From: an uncultured Acidimicrobiia bacterium
GTDB taxonomy: Bacteria > Actinomycetota > Acidimicrobiia > Spongiisociales > Spongiisociaceae
Length of the DNA stretch: 64,000 bases
Direction of reading: 5' to 3'
Assembly: GCA_958295745.1 (NCBI GenBank)
Contig: OY282370.1
Location: 806,001-870,000, forward strand
The stretch's first letter is position 1. Each line of letters opens with the position of its first letter. Under the pieces are notes generated by a model that saw only the letters and a list, made by a program, of their open reading frames with translations, was not told the DNA's origin and did not search any database. Shown piece after piece: positions 53,012-64,000 of this stretch. Made by a program: the position numbers and the translations under genes.

Positions 53012-54241
53012 CTATGCCCAAAGCGTGCTGATCGGCGCGGCGATGATCCGGTCGGCGAGCCGGAAAGGCCAAGTTCCGGTGTGCAGCACCACCCCGCCTA
53101 CGAACATCTTGCCCAGCCGGTCGCGCAGCCAGATCAGATGCTTGGCGTCGCCGCGATTGGGGGCGGCCGTTGCCTTTATCTCGATGCCAATCACCCGCCG
53201 GGCGTCCAGCTCGATCACCAAATCGACCTCGCGTCGTCCGTCGCTCAACCGCAGATGGTGAAGAACTGCTCTGCCTCGGACCGCCGGCGCCTCGGCCCGT
53301 ATCTGACCTACGACGAACGTCTCCAAGACCTGGCCCAGCAGGCCGCCGTTGCCGAGCACCCCCTCCGAGTCAGCCCCCAGCGCGGCAGTCAGCAAACCCG
53401 GATCGGTGAGATACCGCTTGGGCGATCTGGCCAGGCGCTTCAACCGGTTCGTAGTCCAGGCAGGAATCTCATCGGCGATCATCAGGTTCTGCAGATGGTG
53501 CCGATACGCCTCGCCGGTTCGAGGGTTGATACGGGCCGAGTCGTTGATCTTCTGATCGGTGACGATCCCGGCGGAGGCGGCGGCGTACACATCGAAGAAG
53601 CGGCGGAAAAGGGCCGGATTGCGCGCACCCAACACGTCCCTGGCCATGATCCCGTCGATGTATCCCCGCAACCAAGGCCGACGCTCGGTCTCCGGCACGG
53701 ACAGGGCCACCTCGGGAAACCCGCCCTTGACCGCCAGGGCCGCGTAATCCCGAATGTCGAGGCGGCCGGGGGCCGGTTCCAGATCGTCGCCGTCGACGAT
53801 CCGCTCGATCAGCGGTTTTGTGTTTGTTCCCCTCTGCTCGGCGACCGTGAGGGGCCACATCTCCAGGTTCACCACCCGTCCCATGCCGGGCCAGCCGCCG
53901 GCGGGCGTATCAAGCGTCGTGTTCAGCGATCCGGCGAGGATGAACCGTCCGGGCCGGAAGTCGCGGTCGACCGCCCGCTTCACCGCCCCCAACACCTCCG
54001 GGACCTCCTGCCACTCATCCAGCAGGATGGGTTCGGGAAGGTTGCGGTCGAGCGCCGCATCCGGGTCGGCCCGGAACACCGCCGCATCCACCGCCCGGTC
54101 AAGCCGCACCACCGTCCGGGCGCGCCTAGCGGCGGTCGTGGTCTTGCCTGTTGCCCTGGGCCCGACCAGCATGACCGCAGGCAACCCCGACAATCGTTGC
54201 ACTAGGACGGGATCGACCAGACGCTCTCTGTACTCAGCCAT
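53012..54241 (-). CDS. AAA_14 / DUF4143 ATPase
   Basis: The 409-aa protein has a P-loop VMLVGPRATGKTTTAARRA at about 24-42, Walker B PILLDEWQEVPEV, sensor ILAGSLN, and a C-terminal DUF4143 domain with a PD-(D/E)xK-like core (REVDLVIELDARRVIGIEIKAT: Asp, Glu-x-Lys). The role of this common family is unclear; it may be regulatory or nuclease-like. The ATG at 54241 is preferred to the TTG one codon earlier. It reads away from the repeat block and the DUF499 operon, and may be an accessory of the island. Confidence 0.85.
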   Translation of the reverse strand: MAEYRERLVDPVLVQRLSGLPAVMLVGPRATGKTTTAARRARTVVRLDRAVDAAVFRADPDAALDRNLPEPILLDEWQEVPEVLGAVKRAVDRDFRPGRFILAGSLNTTLDTPAGGWPGMGRVVNLEMWPLTVAEQRGTNTKPLIERIVDGDDLEPAPGRLDIRDYAALAVKGGFPEVALSVPETERRPWLRGYIDGIMARDVLGARNPALFRRFFDVYAAASAGIVTDQKINDSARINPRTGEAYRHHLQNLMIADEIPAWTTNRLKRLARSPKRYLTDPGLLTAALGADSEGVLGNGGLLGQVLETFVVGQIRAEAPAVRGRAVLHHLRLSDGRREVDLVIELDARRVIGIEIKATAAPNRGDAKHLIWLRDRLGKMFVGGVVLHTGTWPFRLADRIIAAPISTLWA

Positions 54242-54251
54242 CAAAACCAGA

Positions 54252-54443
54252 ATACAACAATTTCATTCTATTCGATACAACTTTTTCACTGCATTCAATA
54301 CAAGATTTTCACATCATCAAGTACAAGCATCGCGCTCGATTCAAATCGACCAGACGCTCCCATCAAAACTAGAATACAACTTTTTCACTGCATTCAATAC
54401 AAGATTTTCACATCATCAAGTACAAGCATCGCGCTCGATTCAA
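54252..54443. repeat. AT-rich 23-bp-period repeats (iteron-like) between divergent genes
   Basis: The motif (A/G)TACAA(C/G) recurs at 54252, 54275, 54298 and 54321, exactly 23 bp apart, most units continuing with TTTCA and ATTC. After a 29-bp spacer, three units repeat at 54374, 54397 and 54420. Units 2-4 (54275-54344) equal 54374-54443 over 70 bp, and the flanking ATCGACCAGACGCTC (54211 and 54345) is duplicated too. In the direction of the AAA_14 gene the units read TTGTAT...; the block is its promoter/operator region. Local G+C is far below that of the surroundings. Confidence 0.85.
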
Positions 54444-54557: not shown

Positions 54558-57500
54558 ATGGGCGGTATCCTCAACAGCTGTGCTCCGCGGTCCGATGTTC
54601 TGAGCGGCGGGCTTACCGATAAGCACTTCGCCGCCCAGCTCGATCAGGTGGTCGCCAACGCCGCGGGCTACGAGAGCTACGCCGACGCCGATCGGTTCTT
54701 CGATCTGACCTACCCGACCCAGGGTCTGCGCGACCTGCTGAGCGGCACCTTCGGGCGGCTCTTGCACCGACACCCCCCCCCCCGCCGATAATTTAAGAAC
54801 TTCAGCAGCCGAACACGCTGTTTATCGTTACGAAACGAGCTTCGGAGGCGGCAAGACCCACGGGCTGATCGCCCTCTGGCATCTGGCCCGCGGAGCCCGC
54901 CCCGCCAACCTGGCCGAGTTCGTCGACCCGGCCCTGCTCCCCGAAACCTGTCAGACCGCGGCCGTGGTTGGCGACTGCCTCGACCCAATCAACGGGCTGA
55001 CCAGCGGCGGCATCACCACCTACACCCTGTGGGGCGAGATCGCCCGCCAGCTCGGCGCCGAAGCCTGGGGTCTAATGCAGCAGAGCGACGCCGCCCGCAC
55101 CGGCCCGGGCAAGCAGGTCTGGCTGGACATCTTCGGCGCCGCCCCCACCGTGATCATCATCGACGAGCTCGCCCAGTACCTGCGCCGCCTCAGCGCCGCC
55201 GGCAGGGCGCCTGTACGGAACCTGGCCGAGGCCACCATCGACTGCCTCAAGGTGCTGTTCGAAGCCGCCACCGCCGCGCCCGCGGTGCGCATCGTCTTCA
55301 CCCTGGCCACAGGCGTCGCCGCCTTCCAGCGGGAAACCAACCAGATGCAGGACGCCTTGAACGAGGTGGCCGAGCAAAAGATCCTGGCCGAGGCCCGGGA
55401 TGTCATGGAGCGGCCCAAGGGGGCGGTCGGGCGGCCCGCCGACGACCACGAGATCGGCTTCATCCTGCGCCGCCGGCTGTTCTCCCATGTGGACGACGAC
55501 GCAGCGTCCGACGCCTTCGCCGCCTACAAGGACCTCTACTCGGAGATGGCCGACAGGGGCGTACAGGTCGGCCCGGCCACCATCGACCCGGCGGGCTACT
55601 GCGACCGTATCCGCACCTCTTATCCGTTCCATCCGGCGCTGATCGACTGCCTCGACAAGCGCATCGGCCCCCTGCCCGGCTTCCAGCGGGCCCGCGGCGC
55701 GCTCAAGATGCTGGCCGAGGCTGTGCGCAAGATATGGACCGAGCGCGCCGAGCTCCCCATCATCAACCTGGGTGATCTGCCCCTCGAAGCCGAAGCGGTG
55801 CGGGCCTCGGTCACCAGCTCCATCGGCCGCGAAGCGCTGGACGGCCCCGCGCAGGCCGACTTCGCCGGTCCCAACTCCCATGCGGCCGGGGTCGACGCCG
55901 AGCGTTGGCCCAACGAGAAGGCGGCCGCCCGCGCCTGCCGCGCCGTGTTCTGCCACAGCGTCGCCGGTGAACCCGCGCCGGGCGCCGCCCTGCCCGACAT
56001 CCATCTCGGCGTGCTGCGGCCCGGCGAGAACCCCGAAACCGTCGACGAAGCCTTGGCGGTCACCAGCCGGGTGGCCTGGCACCTGGTGTCGGACGGCGCT
56101 CGGTGGCGGTTCCAGGTCGAGCCCAACGCCAACCGCATCATCGCAACCGAAACCGCCAACGTCTCCCAAGCCGACGTAACCGAGGAGCTGAGCAGGATCA
56201 TCGAACGGCTCTTCGCCGGCGACGGGCCCGTCAAGGCCGTCCACCGCCCGACCGGCCCCGCCGACGTGCCCGACGAACCCCGGCTGCGCCTAGCCGTCAT
56301 GGACTGGACCGACACCACCACCACGGCCCGAGAAGCAGCCGCCCCGCCGAAGTCGGTGGGCGAGATCGCCGACTGGGCGGGGGTGTCCGAAGCCAACCGC
56401 ACCTATCGGAACGCGGTCATGGCCCTGGTGGCCGACGCAGACGAATTGGAGAGGATGCGGGAGCGGGTCCGGTTCGAGCTGGCCGCCCGCCGGATCAAGG
56501 GCGACCACAAGCGGCTCGAACAGTTCGGCAAGGAGGTCCGCCAGAAGCTCAAGGAGCTGGCCGACCAAGCAAGCCTGGAGACCCGGATAGCGGTATGCCG
56601 CGCCTACCGGCACCTCTACTGGCCGACCCGCGACCCCGCCAACCACAACCTGCGGCACTTCGAGCTTCCGCCCGGCCAGCAAGGCAAAACGCCCAAGGGC
56701 GCCCAGACCAAGGTTCTGCTGGAAACGCTGCGGCGGAGCGGCAAGATATCCGACTCCGCTCCGGCCACCGACCGGCTGGCCCTCGCCGCCGGCTTCTCCC
56801 GCAGCGGCGAGATGACCACCGCCGACCTGTCCAAGGTCCCCTGGCGCGACCCCGGCCAAGCCATTCTTCTCAATCCGGGCCTGATCAGGGAAACCATCTC
56901 GGCGGGGATAAGCAACGGCGCCTGGGTCTACTACGACGCACGGAAGGAAAAGGCCTACGGCGCCGACCGGACGCCGCCCGCGGTGCGCATCGACAGCGAC
57001 GCCTGGCTCTACAGCCAGGAGAAGGCGCGCCGCCGCGGCCTGCTGCGCCGACCGGTCACGCTCGACCTGATCACCCAGGCCGTCGACCGGCAAGGGGAAG
57101 GCGGGGCGATCACCGGGCCGGCCCTGCGGTCGAGGCTGGAGGAGGCCGTCGGCGGGGAGCCGACCAAAAAGGAGGTGCTGGAGACGCTGGCCGCAGGCCA
57201 CCACGCCTCCGACCCCGTAATCGTTATAGATGCCACCGCCGCCGAACCCGGGGTTTTGACATCCGGCGCCATAAAGCGGGCCCGGCTCGACGACCTCGAG
57301 GTACTCACCGCCGCCGCGGCGGCCGACCGGGGCATAGCGGCCCCCGAGCGCGACCCGGCCCCGAAGGTTGAGGGACGGGGCGGGGTCGGCATGGCCTTCC
57401 AGCAGATCGCCGACCGCATCGCCGACCTCGGCGTAGACACCATCACGAGCATCACGATCAGGACCGGCATCGACCCCGGCGCCGGAACCTGGAACCTGCG

Positions 57501-57825
57501 GCTGCTGGGCCTCTGCATCCCCCAACTTCCGAAGTTCGCCTGTCGGGTGTCGGTGTCGGCCACCGCCGAGTACCGGGGGCTGACGGGCGGCCTGAAGGCA
57601 AGGCTGATGGGCGACGCCCGCTCCTACCAGCAGATAGAGGCCGCCTTGCTGGATCTGGCCGATTCGGGCAGCAAGACGGCGGGCCACCTGAGCATCGAGC
57701 TGACCCCGGCCGCTCCGATCCGCCACGGCGGCCGGCGGTGGATGGAGCTGCACCAGGTAGTCAGGACCAACAATCCGGGCCGGATCAGCATCACCGTCCG
57801 GCTGGCCAGGCCCGGCGGAGAGTGA
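54558..57825 (+). CDS. DUF499-type P-loop ATPase, frame broken at an 11-C tract
   Basis: Two frames together make one DUF499 (COG1483-like) ATPase of about 1088 aa. The first, from ATG 54558, encodes CAPRSDVLSGGLTDKHFAAQ and FFDLTYPTQGLRDLLSGTFG and stops at 54791. The second, one base out of phase, begins at the C-run and continues with VYRYETSFGGGKTHGLIAL (Walker A about 93-100), VIIIDELAQYLRR (Walker B about 200) and TLATG. Joining needs one C fewer. TATTTT ends 6 nt before the ATG, so the mRNA may be leaderless. The gene heads an operon with a methyltransferase and a helicase. As written, the ATPase would be OFF. Confidence 0.85.
54773..54783 (+). other. 11-C homopolymer tract (possible phase-variation switch)
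   Basis: Eleven consecutive C residues lie in the ATPase coding sequence between the N-terminal domain and Walker A. With 10 (or 13) C the frame reads through as LLHRHPPP-ADNLRTSAAEHA into the P-loop; with 11 it stops eight codons later. No similar tract was noticed elsewhere in the window. Confidence 0.85.
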
Positions 57826-57834
57826 GGCCGACCG

Positions 57835-58266
57835 GTGGCCGTTCCCGGGGTGGCCGAGCGGAGGTTCGTCATGCGGCTCCACCCCACACCGGCCGCTGAC
57901 GACTGGGGTTTCACGCTGAGCGAGATGATCGGGACGGAGTCCGCAACGGTGGCGGCGCTGCCCGCACATCAGGCCTGGCGCCACCGGCGGGCGGTGATCG
58001 AGGCGGTGAAGGCGGACGGTTACCCGGCGACCGCGGTCAGCCCGCGCCGCCGCCGGCCCTTCAACCTGACCCAGGAACCGGGCGTCCGCCTAGCCCTGGC
58101 GGTGCGGGCCGCGGCCCCGGTACGCAAGGCCGACCGCCGGATGGCCATCACCGAAGGGCTGCGGACCATGGGCACCGAAGAGGCCCTCTACTGGTACGCC
58201 CAAGTGAGCGGTACCGGCGGCGGGCGCGCCCTGCGGGCTCTACGGCTGTTGCTGGCGGCGGAATGA
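57835..58266 (+). CDS. small protein between ATPase and methyltransferase
   Basis: The 143-aa basic protein starts with GTG 9 bp after the ATPase stop and overlaps the methyltransferase start by 4 nt (ATGA). It has an N-terminal strand-rich part (RRFVMRLHPTPAADDWGFTL) and an Arg-rich C-terminal half (SPRRRRPFNLTQEPGVRLAL, then GRALRALRLLLAAE). No catalytic motif is seen. Homologous islands contain a small protein at this place, so it is likely a structural or DNA-contacting subunit. Family not named with confidence. Confidence 0.65.
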   Translation: MAVPGVAERRFVMRLHPTPAADDWGFTLSEMIGTESATVAALPAHQAWRHRRAVIEAVKADGYPATAVSPRRRRPFNLTQEPGVRLALAVRAAAPVRKADRRMAITEGLRTMGTEEALYWYAQVSGTGGGRALRALRLLLAAE

Positions 58267-61211
58267 ACCGGACGAATCCCGCTCAGAGCGACCCGGCAAC
58301 CCGGCCGCGGCTGTTCATCGAGGAGGGCTTCCCCGTAACGGAGCTGAGCATCGAATCGGTACGCGAGAGGGGCGCTCCTTCGGCGTTGCCGCCCATCTAC
58401 TTTCTCCATGTCTGGTGGGCAAGACGGCCTTTGGTGGCCAGCGCGGGCGCCATCCTGGGTAGCCTGCTACCGGCCTGGAATCAGAAGCTAGCCGACCGAT
58501 TCCCAGACTGCCCCGAGCTGGCCACGAACAATAACTATCGAGCGTGGTTCCTGAAGCTATGCGGCATCTGGGGCGATCCGGTCGCGGCCCGGAAGTTGAT
58601 CGAAGCGGCTATTGAATCGGGGATACGAATCCCGAACCCATATACGTACAAACAGGCCTTCAAGAACATCCCCACTCCGGACAACCTGAGCCTGTTGCGT
58701 GAAGTGTTGGAAGACACCTGGGGGCGGATCCCCTCCGTGTCGGACCCGACCGCTGGCGGCGGATCGATCCCCTTCGAGGCGTTGCGCTACGGCTTGACGG
58801 CCCACGCCAATGACTTGAACCCGATCGCGGTCGGCGTGCTGAGAGCCGGTGTGGAGCTGCCCGTCCGTTACAGAACGGATCTGAACACCGAATTGGAGCA
58901 CTGGGGACATCTACTGGTGGATCGGCTCAACACTCGTCTGACCCCTTTCTTCGAACCTCACGATGACCAGACGAGCGTGGCCGCCACATTCATCTTTGCC
59001 CGGACGGTGGCCTGCCCGCGTACCGGCAAGACCGTGCCCTTGGTCGGCGACTGGTCACTACGCCGGGGCAACGATCCGGTGGCGGTGCGCCTAGTCACCC
59101 ACCGCGACGGTGTCGAGCTCGACGAACCCGAGTACCGGATCGTCGAAGGTTCGGGCATCGGCTTCAACTCCAAGAAAACGGCCACCTACTCATATGGTAA
59201 AGGAATTTCACCCTGGGATCAGCTGGTGATCGACGGCGATTACATCCGGGCCGAGGCCCAAGCGGGGCGGATGGGTGAGGTGCTCTACGCGGTGGCCATC
59301 CGTACCCCGCAGGGCCGAGGCTTTCGGGCCCCCACCGAGACCGACCGGGCCGCCCTAGCTGCCGCCGAGGCCGAGCTGGAGCGGTTGTTGCCCCAGTGGG
59401 AACGGGAAGATGTGTTGCCGACCGAGTATTTTCCCGATGGAAATGACCGGCGTCCTATCCAGTACGGGATGCCTCTCTGGAGGGACCTGTTCACCCCGCG
59501 GCAACTGCTGGGGCACGGTTGCTTCGTGGAGGAGTACCGCAAGCTGATCGACGAGATTCGAGACGCAGTCCCCGACCGGGACCGCGCCGACGCGGTGCTG
59601 GCCCTGCTGGTGATGATGCAGAGCAAGGCAGTCGACTACAACTCGCGTCAGGTCGGTTGGCATGTAAACCGTCAAGCGATCGCCCACGCCTTCTCTCAGC
59701 ATGCTTTTCCGTTCAAGAAGACCTTCGCCGAGTTCGAGGCCGGGCGGGAGCTATACCCATGGTGCCTCAAACAGTTGCTCACCGCCTACCGGGGCATCGC
59801 CGGACTGTTGCCCGACACCACCGACCTGCCCGACCACGAAAGCCCCGACCCTGAACGGCAAGCGCCACGGATCAAGGTCACTAGGGGCAACGCCGGACAC
59901 ATGCCCGAGATCCCATCCCGGAGCTTCGAGCTGGTGTGCATCGACCCGCCCTACTACGACAATGTGATGTACGCCGAGCTGTCCGATTACTTCTACGTAT
60001 GGGAGAAGCGCACCCTCGGACGGCTCTGGCCCGAGTTCTTCGATGACGAGCTGACCAACAAACACGACGAGGCGGTCAAGAACAAGGCCCGCTTCGCAGC
60101 TATGGGACGTCGCACCAACGAGCTTGCCCACAACGACTACCGGTTCAAGATGCAGGCCATCTTCGGTGAATGCCGCCGCATCCTGCGCGATGAGGGTGCC
60201 TTATGCGTGATGTTCACCCACAAGGCGGCCGACGCCTGGAATGGCTTGGGGGCTTCTCTTCTGGACGCCGGTTTCACCATCGAGACATCCTGGCCCATGA
60301 GCACCGAATCGCCGTCTTCGCTGCATCAGGCCAAGAAGAACGCAGCCAAATCGACCATCTTGCTGGTGTGCCGCAAGCGAACCGAGCGACACGACGAAGG
60401 CGATCGGGTCTACCTCCCCGAGATCGAGGCGGAGATCCGCGCCGCTACGGGAGAATCCCTGCATCGCGCCGCAAAACAAGGCCTGAGCGGCGTGGACCTG
60501 CTGTTGTCTACCTACGGACCGACCCTGTCGGTGTTGTCGCGGTACTGGCCGGTGTATTCCAGCGAAACGGACGAGTCGGGCCGATCCCGCCGACTGCGCC
60601 CCGAAGAGGCCCTCCACATCGCCCGAGCCGAGGTCACCCGCCGCCAGCGTATCCGTCTGGTGGGGCTTGAGGTCGACTTCGACCCCGTCAGCGACTTCGT
60701 CATCGCCGCCTGGGACACCTTCCGGGCCCGGCGGTTTCCCTTCGACGACGCCCGCCGCATGGCTCTGGCCACCGGCGGTCTCGATCTGGACGAACTGAAA
60801 CGCGCCAAGGTCATCAAGGCTCAGTCGGGCACGGTAACCCTGCTGGAACCCCATGAGCGGCTGCGCCGCGACGGGGACGAAGACCTGCCCGGCGTCAACC
60901 GCAGCCGGGCCGCATTCCCGATCTCGATCGACGCCGTGCATACCGCCCTGTACATCGTCGATCTCGACGGCCTCGGGGCAGCCAAGCGCTGGCTCGACCA
61001 ACGCGGCCTGAGCGAAGACGGGCGCTTCACGGCCTGCCTGCAGGCACTGGTGAGGGCTATCCCGCGCACCAAGACCAAGGGCGAGTGGAATATCCCCGAG
61101 GCCGAGCTACTCGACGATCTGGTAACCACCTACTTCCCCGGCATAGAGGTTCCCCCCGACCCGGACGAGGACCCCGAACAGCTGGCCTTCGGCGACTCAC
61201 CCGATGGCTGA
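58263..61211 (+). CDS. DUF1156-type DNA methyltransferase
   Basis: The 982-aa protein is of the DUF1156/COG1743 type, predicted adenine-specific DNA methylases. The N-terminal DUF1156 part has RLFIEEGFPVTELSIES and PPIYFLHVWWARRPLVAS. SAM-binding motif I is DPTAGGGSIPFEAL near 161, and the catalytic motif IV is CIDPPYYDNVMYAELSDYFY near 560. The large C-terminal region may recognise DNA. It overlaps both neighbours by a few nt, tying it to the ATPase and helicase genes. Methylation of host DNA for self-recognition or of phage DNA are both possible. Confidence 0.87.
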   Translation: MNRTNPAQSDPATRPRLFIEEGFPVTELSIESVRERGAPSALPPIYFLHVWWARRPLVASAGAILGSLLPAWNQKLADRFPDCPELATNNNYRAWFLKLCGIWGDPVAARKLIEAAIESGIRIPNPYTYKQAFKNIPTPDNLSLLREVLEDTWGRIPSVSDPTAGGGSIPFEALRYGLTAHANDLNPIAVGVLRAGVELPVRYRTDLNTELEHWGHLLVDRLNTRLTPFFEPHDDQTSVAATFIFARTVACPRTGKTVPLVGDWSLRRGNDPVAVRLVTHRDGVELDEPEYRIVEGSGIGFNSKKTATYSYGKGISPWDQLVIDGDYIRAEAQAGRMGEVLYAVAIRTPQGRGFRAPTETDRAALAAAEAELERLLPQWEREDVLPTEYFPDGNDRRPIQYGMPLWRDLFTPRQLLGHGCFVEEYRKLIDEIRDAVPDRDRADAVLALLVMMQSKAVDYNSRQVGWHVNRQAIAHAFSQHAFPFKKTFAEFEAGRELYPWCLKQLLTAYRGIAGLLPDTTDLPDHESPDPERQAPRIKVTRGNAGHMPEIPSRSFELVCIDPPYYDNVMYAELSDYFYVWEKRTLGRLWPEFFDDELTNKHDEAVKNKARFAAMGRRTNELAHNDYRFKMQAIFGECRRILRDEGALCVMFTHKAADAWNGLGASLLDAGFTIETSWPMSTESPSSLHQAKKNAAKSTILLVCRKRTERHDEGDRVYLPEIEAEIRAATGESLHRAAKQGLSGVDLLLSTYGPTLSVLSRYWPVYSSETDESGRSRRLRPEEALHIARAEVTRRQRIRLVGLEVDFDPVSDFVIAAWDTFRARRFPFDDARRMALATGGLDLDELKRAKVIKAQSGTVTLLEPHERLRRDGDEDLPGVNRSRAAFPISIDAVHTALYIVDLDGLGAAKRWLDQRGLSEDGRFTACLQALVRAIPRTKTKGEWNIPEAELLDDLVTTYFPGIEVPPDPDEDPEQLAFGDSPDG

Positions 61212-64000
61212 ACCCCCGCCGGGGTGCTTCCAGGACCTCGATCTCGCAACCCGCTACTCGGCGGGCGTCAAGGACATGCTGGCCGATTTCTACATCCCGG
61301 TGCTGTCGAGAGCGGTGCGCTACGACCGGGCGGCGGGCTACTTCGCCTCGTCGTCGTTCTTCGCGGCGGCGGCCGGGATGGCCCGGTTCATCGACAACGA
61401 AGGCCAAATCCGGCTGCTGGTCGGCGCTCAGCTCACCGAGGACGACCACCGGGCCCTGCTCGGCAAAGTCCCGCTCGACCAGATCATGGCCGAACGCCTC
61501 CGGCGGGACGAGCTGACCGCCGACGATGTGGCCTGGCGCCGCCTGCAGGTCATCGCCTGGCTGGTGCGCGAAGGTCGTCTGACGATCCGGGTCGGCCTGC
61601 CCTGCGACGACTTCACCGGGGCGCCGATCCCCCATTCCGATGAGCAGCGTCGTCTCAAGTACTTCCACATCAAGTGGGGCGTGCTCGAAGACGCCGACGG
61701 CGACCGGGTGGCCTTCGACGGCAGCATCAACGAATCCGCGTCGGGCTGGCAGGGCAACTACGAGTCTTTCAGCGCCTACAAGTCGTGGCATACCCAGGTC
61801 TGGCGGCAATACGGCCGGAAGATCGTCTACGAGTTCGAACAGCTCTGGCGCGGCGACAATGTAAGCGGCTGGCGCAGCCTGCCTCTGCCCGAGGTCGAGC
61901 AACGTCTCATCAAGCTGCTGCCCGACGAACCCGGCTGGGCACCCCCCGCCCGGGACCCGCTCGAACCCGAGCTGAGCGAGGCCGACCGGGAGGCTATCGC
62001 GGATATCCGGGCCGCCCCCCGCACCGGCACCGGCGTGGGGATGTTGTCGAGCGGGATCGAACCCTGGCCCCATCAGCTGGCCATCGCCCGGCGCATCTGC
62101 GAGAGCCGGCCCCGCAACTACCTGCTGGCCGACGAGGTGGGGCTGGGCAAGACCATCGAGGCGGGCCTCGTGCTGCGGGAGCTGTTGCTCGCGGGGGAGG
62201 TGGAGAGAGCGCTGATCCTGGCGCCGGCGTCGCTGTTGATCCAGTGGCAGGAGGAGCTGGCCGAGAAGTTCATGCTGGAGGTTCCCCGTTTGGACGGACG
62301 CAGGCTGCGTTACCCCGACGGGACGGAGCGCCGGCTGTCGTCCGGCGAGAACCGTTGGCGGGCGGCGCCGGTCCTGCTGGCGTCATCGCATCTGGCACGG
62401 ATGAGGACCAACCGCGCCGAGCTGCTCGAAGGGCCCGGCTGGGACCTGGTGTTCGTCGACGAGACCCACCACGCCCGGCGGCGGGGGTCGAAGCCCACCG
62501 ACCCGCCCAATCAGATGCTGGCGACTCTGACGGCGCTGGCCGAGGAGAACCTGTTCAAGGCCCTGCTGCTGGCATCGGCCACCCCCATGCAGCTCCACAC
62601 CCACGACCTCTGGGACCTGCTCGACCTGTTCGGCCTGCCCGACGGCTGGAACCGAAGCGCCGCGGACATGGAGCGCTACTACCGGGCGCTCCAGGAACCG
62701 TTCGGCGACCGCGACTGGCCCCGCCTGCAGACGATGCTGACCGGTTATCTGGACGCAACCGCGCCCGACCCCGCGGTCGTGGAGATGATCGAAGAAAAGG
62801 CGGGCTGGGTGGAGTCGGACCGGATCCGTGATTTCCATCTGAGCGCCGGGGGCCGGCCCCGTGGAGTCGACGCCGAGGTGAAGCAGTCCTGGGACAACTG
62901 GCTGCGGGCCAACACGCCGGTGCGCGACCGGGTGTTCCGCACCACCCGGGCGACGCTGCGGCGCTACCGGCAGACCGGGGTGCTGGACCCGGACACCGTG
63001 ATTCCGAAGCGAAGCATCGACGACCGGTTCTACAGCCTCGGCGAGGCCAAACCCCTCTACGACCGCATCGAGGAGTACATCCTGCGCTACTACGACGCCT
63101 ACCTGTCCGCGGGCGGCAAGAGCGCGCCGCTCGGCTTCATCATGACCGTCTACAGGCGGCGGCTGACCTCAAGCTTCTACGCCATCCGCAAATCACTCGA
63201 GCGGCGGCGCGCCGTCCTCGCCAGGAGGGAGCCCCTGCCCGACCTACTCGACGACGACGACCGCTACACCGCCGAGGGCCTCGACGACCTGGGGCGGGTC
63301 GAGCACCTGGGCGGCGGAGAGCTCCTCCTGGCGGGGGGCGACCTCCGGGCTGAGCTGGCCGAACTCGACGACTTCATCGGGGAGCTGACCGACCAGCCGC
63401 CCGACGAACCCAAGATGGAGGCCATGTACGACCTGCTCGACGACAACTTCGGGTCGGGCGCGCACGACACGGTGGTGATCTTCACCCAGTACCGCGACAC
63501 CCTCCACTACATCCGCCGCCAGCTGCTCAACGTCTACCGGGGATCGCTGGCCTGCTACTACGGCGGGCGGGGTGAATGTTGGGACGAGGCGGCCGAGCAA
63601 TGGACGCCGATCAGCAAGGAGGAGGTAAAGGAGCGGTTCCGGCGGGGCGAGGTGAAGATCCTGCTGGGCACCGATTCCATGTCGGAGGGTCTCAACCTGC
63701 AGACCTGCGGTTGGCTGATCAACTTCGACCTGCCTTGGAACTTCACCAGGGTGGAGCAGCGCATCGGGCGGGTGGACCGGATCGGCGGCCGGCCAATGGT
63801 GCAGGTCAGCAACTTCTTCTACGAGGGCACCGTGGAGGAGGACATATACCGGCGCATCCACGACAGCCACGACTGGTTCTCCAACGTCATCGGCAACGCC
63901 GCCCCGGTGCTGGCCGCCGCCGAGAACCTGATCTCCGACGCCGCCATGGGGCGCCGCACCACCGAACAGGCGGCCGGCGAGCTAGAAAACCTGCTCGACC
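61204..64000 (+). CDS. PLD-like domain / SNF2-type DEAD-like helicase (3' end outside window)
   Basis: From ATG 61204, overlapping the methyltransferase stop by 8 nt, the frame is open to the window end (932 residues seen). Residues 15-200 form a phospholipase-D-like domain (YFASSSFFAAAAGM, HIKWGVLE near 154 and GSINES). Then follows a superfamily 2 helicase: ADEVGLGKTIEAGL (Walker A, about 312), FVDETHH (motif II, 419), LASATPMQ (III), and VVIFTQYRD, GTDSMSEGLNLQT (V, 822), QRIGRVDRIGG (VI, 852). It resembles RapA/SNF2-like translocases fused to PLD that occur in DISARM-like and related defence islands. The stop lies beyond the window. Confidence 0.87.
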   Translation, partial: MAEPPPGCFQDLDLATRYSAGVKDMLADFYIPVLSRAVRYDRAAGYFASSSFFAAAAGMARFIDNEGQIRLLVGAQLTEDDHRALLGKVPLDQIMAERLRRDELTADDVAWRRLQVIAWLVREGRLTIRVGLPCDDFTGAPIPHSDEQRRLKYFHIKWGVLEDADGDRVAFDGSINESASGWQGNYESFSAYKSWHTQVWRQYGRKIVYEFEQLWRGDNVSGWRSLPLPEVEQRLIKLLPDEPGWAPPARDPLEPELSEADREAIADIRAAPRTGTGVGMLSSGIEPWPHQLAIARRICESRPRNYLLADEVGLGKTIEAGLVLRELLLAGEVERALILAPASLLIQWQEELAEKFMLEVPRLDGRRLRYPDGTERRLSSGENRWRAAPVLLASSHLARMRTNRAELLEGPGWDLVFVDETHHARRRGSKPTDPPNQMLATLTALAEENLFKALLLASATPMQLHTHDLWDLLDLFGLPDGWNRSAADMERYYRALQEPFGDRDWPRLQTMLTGYLDATAPDPAVVEMIEEKAGWVESDRIRDFHLSAGGRPRGVDAEVKQSWDNWLRANTPVRDRVFRTTRATLRRYRQTGVLDPDTVIPKRSIDDRFYSLGEAKPLYDRIEEYILRYYDAYLSAGGKSAPLGFIMTVYRRRLTSSFYAIRKSLERRRAVLARREPLPDLLDDDDRYTAEGLDDLGRVEHLGGGELLLAGGDLRAELAELDDFIGELTDQPPDEPKMEAMYDLLDDNFGSGAHDTVVIFTQYRDTLHYIRRQLLNVYRGSLACYYGGRGECWDEAAEQWTPISKEEVKERFRRGEVKILLGTDSMSEGLNLQTCGWLINFDLPWNFTRVEQRIGRVDRIGGRPMVQVSNFFYEGTVEEDIYRRIHDSHDWFSNVIGNAAPVLAAAENLISDAAMGRRTTEQAAGELENLLD

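Follow-up and report, generated by a model that had tools for sequence, protein, structure and literature searches.

A DUF7680-containing BREX-related operon with a candidate phase-variation tract in its ATPase gene in an uncultured Acidimicrobiia bacterium

What kind of system is encoded by four closely packed genes, the first of which is interrupted by a frame break, and is that break damage or a switch? This question is raised by an operon in a 64,000-nt stretch of DNA (the window, G000:C1:806001-870000) from the genome of an uncultured Acidimicrobiia bacterium, assembled as 3.31 Mb in 9 contigs. The operon spans 54558-64344 of the window coordinates on the + strand, with its last gene ending 344 nt beyond the window. 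It comprises genes for a DUF499 AAA+ ATPase (54558..57825; 1088 aa with its homopolymer tract in register), a 143-aa DUF7680 protein (57835..58266), a 982-aa DUF1156 N6-adenine DNA methyltransferase (58263..61211), and a 1046-aa predicted HKD/PLD nuclease-Snf2 helicase (61204..64000, continuing to 64344; L009:7204-10344), all on the + strand. A 9-nt gap separates the ATPase stop (57825) from the DUF7680 start (57835), and the following junctions are overlaps of 4 nt (58263-58266) and 8 nt (61204-61211); the gap and overlaps reported in a preliminary description of the locus were thus borne out (+9, -4, and -8 nt).

Profile searches confirmed the main observation of that description, a four-gene cluster of named families. 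Pfam matches were obtained for DUF499 (PF04465, 1.7e-27, on the main ATPase piece), DUF1156 (PF06634, 3.8e-12), and SNF2/Helicase_C (PF00176/PF00271, 5.6e-18), and the small protein, previously unnamed, was identified as DUF7680 (PF24728, 6.6e-22). PADLOC models matched the ATPase as HmaC (1.9e-67, with HmaC found on both pieces), the methylase as HmaB (1.3e-70), and the helicase as PLD_Helicase. The NCBIfam model phospholipD_antiphage matched the helicase at 3.3e-98, below its cut-off, and the DUF499, DUF1156, and PLD-protein models that NCBIfam labels "anti-phage" gave matches that were all far under their cut-offs.

Beyond position 64000, the helicase gene ends at 64344; next come an Mrp/NUBPL gene and then an aconitase gene, both housekeeping, with no further operon genes, and this flank indicates a complete four-gene operon. 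On the 5' side lie a VapBC pair and, in divergent orientation, an AAA_14/DUF4143 gene, both mentioned as neighbours in the preliminary description. Both were rejected as members of the system, since homologues of AAA_14/DUF4143 occur in 0 and of VapBC in 1 of the 90 DUF7680 loci described below. The AAA_14/DUF4143 protein itself (53012-54244, - strand) is matched from end to end by the PADLOC candidate PDC-S01 (7.5e-102). Between this divergent gene and the ATPase gene, AT-rich intergenic repeats (54252..54443) include a 70-nt exact duplication (54275-54344 and 54374-54443), the only direct repeat of at least 60 nt found in the window; its units of ~23 nt are a possible regulatory site or operator iterons.

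The catalytic motifs of the operon are strongly conserved. Walker A (ETSFGGGKTH) and Walker B of the ATPase are kept at or near 100% among 73 relatives, the methylase DPPY (residues 561-564) is present in 100% of 66 relatives, and the helicase HKD signature (H155-x-K157 ... G173-S174-x-N176) is 100% conserved in 51 helicases, with the SF2/Snf2 motifs at or near 100%. The HKD domain is thus the likely nuclease, in agreement with the earlier suggestion that the PLD domain fills this role. The frame break is the sole damage to the operon, in which the catalytic motifs are otherwise all present.

Of 297 genomes of the phylum, three (the source genome among them) encode DUF7680, each time beside the same three genes. 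Plasmids carry it too, in Rhodococcus, cyanobacteria, and haloarchaea, and it adjoined DUF499 in all eight records read (8/8). Among named carriers of the system, the nearest come from uncultured Acidimicrobiia, marine and other. When a collection was scanned, 185 DUF7680 stretches were confirmed, and the best 80 of the 185 were taken, giving 90 loci in all, two of which (L044 and L092, both on contigs of 23,127 bases) are apparently one locus counted twice. A DUF499 ATPase gene lies upstream of DUF7680 on the same strand in 85 of the 90 loci, within 30 nt in 70 of these 85; the remaining loci have no ATPase ORF, several of them being at contig ends. The order ATPase-DUF7680-methylase-helicase is invariant wherever the genes were found (methyltransferase 79/79, helicase 57/57), and in cyanobacteria and chloroflexota other genes, including toxin-antitoxin pairs, often stand between DUF7680 and the methylase. 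One operon, on a contig of Stenotrophomonas maltophilia P13 (L165), is nested among actinobacterial ones, reflecting either recent transfer or a contaminated contig. A plasmid of Rhodococcus pyridinivorans (L047 4293) carries a G25 run ~1.4 kb 5' of the DUF499 gene in a system of this type.

In unrooted trees built by a quick method, the DUF7680 loci form one separate group for each protein: ATPases (n=30, SH-aLRT 99), helicases (n=27, SH-aLRT 98), and methylases (n=26, SH-aLRT 95). All three groups stand apart both from DUF3780 loci and from the other DUF499 loci, which, where their neighbours were read, mostly show the order helicase-methylase-ATPase and a helicase without HKD.

The DUF499-DUF1156 pair had been described as largely unknown in mechanism; its kind is now known from a 2026 survey that describes DUF499-centred systems as BREX-related (BR), with three subtypes (PMC12839542). 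The attribution to an anti-phage type of multi-gene system with DUF499, DUF1156, and PLD-SNF2 proteins appears right as to kind, judging by the family matches, and the tripartite BR core of DUF499 ATPase, DUF1156 N6-methyltransferase, and Snf2 helicase is present at the locus. Type 1 is defined by a helicase bearing a C-terminal PD-(D/E)XK and TUDOR, with an optional HEPN on the ATPase (PMC12839542); here the helicase carries HKD at its N-terminus instead, and the ATPase has no N-terminal extension for HEPN. Type 3 contains PglZ and iSTAND genes (PMC12839542); the present operon has four genes only, with a housekeeping 3' flank, and no PglZ match was obtained among its four proteins with Pfam or PADLOC. 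The ATPase and methyltransferase score closest to those of type-1 and type-3 systems, including Hma (PADLOC), but those systems have the helicase-methyltransferase-ATPase order and no helicase HKD.

Type 2 combines an HKD helicase with a standalone DUF3780 gene in 98% of taxa (PMC12839542). The present operon resembles it in the order ATPase, small protein, DUF1156 methyltransferase, helicase, in the N-terminal HKD of the helicase, and in a standalone subunit of beta3-alpha-beta-alpha4 architecture. It differs in that the small gene is DUF7680, with PF12635 (DUF3780) giving no match in the source genome, and in that the ATPase, methyltransferase, and helicase lie outside the groups formed by DUF3780 loci, the DUF7680 and DUF3780 ATPases being two separate supported groups. 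BREX proper, with PglZ and BrxC/PglY, is likewise not represented: there is no PglZ, and BrxC gave only a weak secondary match (2.3e-4). The locus shares with DISARM and ARMADA an Snf2 helicase (DrmD/BrxHII-like) and a methylase, but the operon lacks both the YprA/DrmA helicase and a DUF1998 protein, and identity with either system was rejected on gene content. By its family matches and gene order, the operon is a BR system outside the three published subtypes. Its features form a mosaic: the ATPase and methylase are nearer to the other DUF499 loci, and the operon agrees with type 2 in its HKD helicase, its small gene, and the order of its genes.

The small gene was compared with DUF3780 at the level of structure. 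The AlphaFold model of DUF7680 (pLDDT 91) contains strands at 9-18, 21-32, and 35-42, a helix at 44-60, a strand at 76-78, and helices at 80-93, 99-111, 114-125, and 129-140. That of DUF3780 contains strands at 20-25, 32-38, and 57-63, a helix at 64-84, a strand at 95-100, helices at 101-114, 119-130, 134-148, and 157-166, and a final helix. Both models thus share the order of three strands, a helix, a strand, and four helices. Profile comparison with hhalign placed the C-terminal halves in register (E 0.0046, probability 7.7%), but shuffled profiles score likewise, and this suggestive, non-significant result was kept as a structural likeness only. A fold search of DUF7680 against PDB and BFVD gave no match. 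Based on the models, DUF7680 is likely the equivalent of DUF3780, with homology between the two unproven.

We then considered the frame break. ATPase residues 1-77 are encoded at 54558-54788, and the remainder, ending at 57825, is read in the +1 frame; the Walker A stretch, HAVYRYETSFGGGKTHGLIALWHL, is read in the frame that follows that of residues 1-77. The shift occurs at a C11 homopolymer (54773..54783, + strand) located ~16 codons 5' of the Walker A stretch, the sole homopolymer of at least 8 nt in the 64 kb window. In the assembled register, no canonical start codon yields a Walker A (P-loop) product from either ATPase piece, and one C fewer in the tract leaves the frame open for 1088 aa. 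The frame change falls exactly at a repeat of the hypermutable type, which marks it as a candidate phase-variation tract. The preliminary description had treated the break as something to be corrected; a slippage tract is more likely than plain damage.

Related ATPase genes carry comparable tracts. In L088, a G12 occupies the same site as C11 and the gene is split there, with a second frameshift elsewhere that has no tract; in L090, a scrambled G/C run lies at this site together with a scaffold gap (N) that disturbs the ATPase start, and the locus was scored as "tract present" only. L089 and L207 carry C11 at one homologous proline (APPP) site and L087 carries C14 near the C-terminus, all three with the frame open; L207 (genome G407) belongs to the same family as the source genome and is more distant than L087-L090. 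A G/C tract of at least 11 nt is thus present in 5 of 5 complete ATPases of the close Acidimicrobiia clade (window and L087-L090), plus L207, with tract lengths and register taken as assembled from one assembly per species. No tract of at least 9 nt was found in the DUF7680, methyltransferase, or helicase genes of these six loci. Based on genome-wide tract loads, 0.22 tract-bearing ATPases were expected in the five relatives and 5 were seen (Poisson 4e-6). Two of the in-gene tract sites encode a proline run, which other ATPases keep without a long tract.

These data bear on the best-surviving alternative, in which the defence operon is the same but its ATPase is intact and permanently on, the break being an artefact of sequencing or assembly at the homopolymer. 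Homopolymer lengths are indeed unreliable in metagenome assemblies, and the ATPases of L089, L207, and L087 have tracts together with open frames. An error accounts for the length of a tract but not for the fact that every complete ATPase of this clade has one while the adjoining genes have none, and we regard this explanation as unlikely.

The source genome contains many such tracts. The main contig has 33 tracts of at least 10 nt, with a modal length of 11, and contig C2 shows a far higher tract density. Up to 1.25 Mb of the main contig, every poly-C tract of 10-12 nt is on the + strand; from 1.50 Mb onwards, every one is on the - strand, a replichore orientation that reflects a replication-linked process. 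A codon-usage score for separating coding from intergenic tracts called the right strand in 69% of cases, too weak for use, and was replaced by neighbour-gene Pfam assignments and a rotation test. Clusters of the main contig's tracts of at least 10 nt lie within 3 kb of DNA methyltransferase or S-layer genes in 10 of 25 cases against 2.9 expected (15 of 20,000 rotations), these two gene classes having been picked after looking at the data. This clustering also argues against sequencing error as the whole explanation. Classically, the gene classes that undergo phase variation are those for restriction enzymes and for surface proteins. Some C tracts also lie near housekeeping genes and many are intergenic; those near housekeeping genes indicate that some tracts arise without selection.

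Several individual loci on the main contig illustrate this context. A type ISP restriction-modification gene (G000:C1:253565-256598; L181-L184) has four C10-C12 tracts in and around it. At G000:C1:560-563 kb (L187), the frame of an Eco57I-type methylase ends ~10 codons past a C11 and is followed by a second PLD-SNF2 gene; the two are perhaps another switchable defence system. Further DNA methylases also adjoin tracts. A tandem array of at least five S-layer-homology/FG-GAP proteins of ~1200 aa, with a period of ~4.1 kb and a G9-12 tract near or upstream of each start (L245; G000:C1:2728000-2747999), looks like a putative phase-variable surface-protein family. A second DUF499 system (L259/L075; G000:C1:2796500-2816000) is of another BR type, with the order methylase-ATPase and a long N-terminal extension on the ATPase.

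The replichore-oriented and often intergenic tracts look mutational, as they would if the operon were decaying, its ATPase a pseudogene after a one-off frameshift and the C tracts of the genome the product of a neutral mutational process. Against this, the remaining ATPase frame is intact, as are the other three genes, with every catalytic motif kept, and the same ATPase site is affected in L088 and L090, there by the other base. Loss may still have happened recently, but we consider decay improbable. Programmed transcriptional slippage or ribosomal frameshifting at C11, giving a fixed fraction of full-length ATPase and no heritable switch, would be compatible with a long homopolymer in a linker where both frames are open before and after it, but is highly improbable given that the relatives' tracts lie at other sites and are in frame in L087, L089, and L207, a pattern better suited to a heritable switch.

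Taken together, we consider it fairly likely that the locus is a restriction-like BR defence operon of a separate DUF7680 subtype that is phase-varied via the ATPase C tract, with a predicted defence function and putative switching. Going by the protein families and by PMC12839542, the ORC/Cdc6-like DUF499 ATPase and the DUF7680 subunit would scan DNA and recognise unmodified foreign DNA, on which the HKD-Snf2 protein would translocate and cut. The DUF1156 enzyme, from its family, would methylate adenine at a host motif. A change in tract length not divisible by three would, in a given cell, switch the ATPase off or on and restriction with it. The assembled sequence would represent the OFF register; homopolymer lengths are error-prone in such assemblies, so the C11 register, and with it the OFF state, may be wrong. 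There is precedent for such switching: the Pgl system (BREX type 2) of Streptomyces coelicolor, also a methylase- and ATPase-based defence, phase-varies via a G tract in pglX (PMC4365076), and a tract in brxX has been reported (PMC6326788). The Pgl tract is located in the methylase gene, whereas the present tract lies in the ATPase gene, and PglZ and PglW are absent here.

We know of no member of the DUF7680 group that has been tried against phage. DUF7680 is absent from the main text of PMC12839542, and the literature searched contained no paper on it. The BR kind of system is known; what is new is the DUF7680 subtype and a probable slippage switch in the ATPase. A broader proposal, about whose correctness we are evenly divided, is that these systems are a fourth BR subtype in actinobacteria, cyanobacteria, chloroflexota, and haloarchaea, and that in an uncultured Acidimicrobiia lineage the ATPase, not the methylase, is the heritable switch, within a genome-wide set of C-tract switches covering other DNA methylases and S-layer proteins. 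Such a widespread subtype, beyond the three named in the main text of PMC12839542, would bear on how BR systems were assembled. If the tract acts as proposed, its placement in the ATPase gene instead of the methylase gene would let restriction be switched with self-marking still possible, a safe way to phase-vary restriction. If the poly-C tracts near defence and S-layer genes are likewise switches, uncultured Acidimicrobiia would be an unrecognised phase-varying group.
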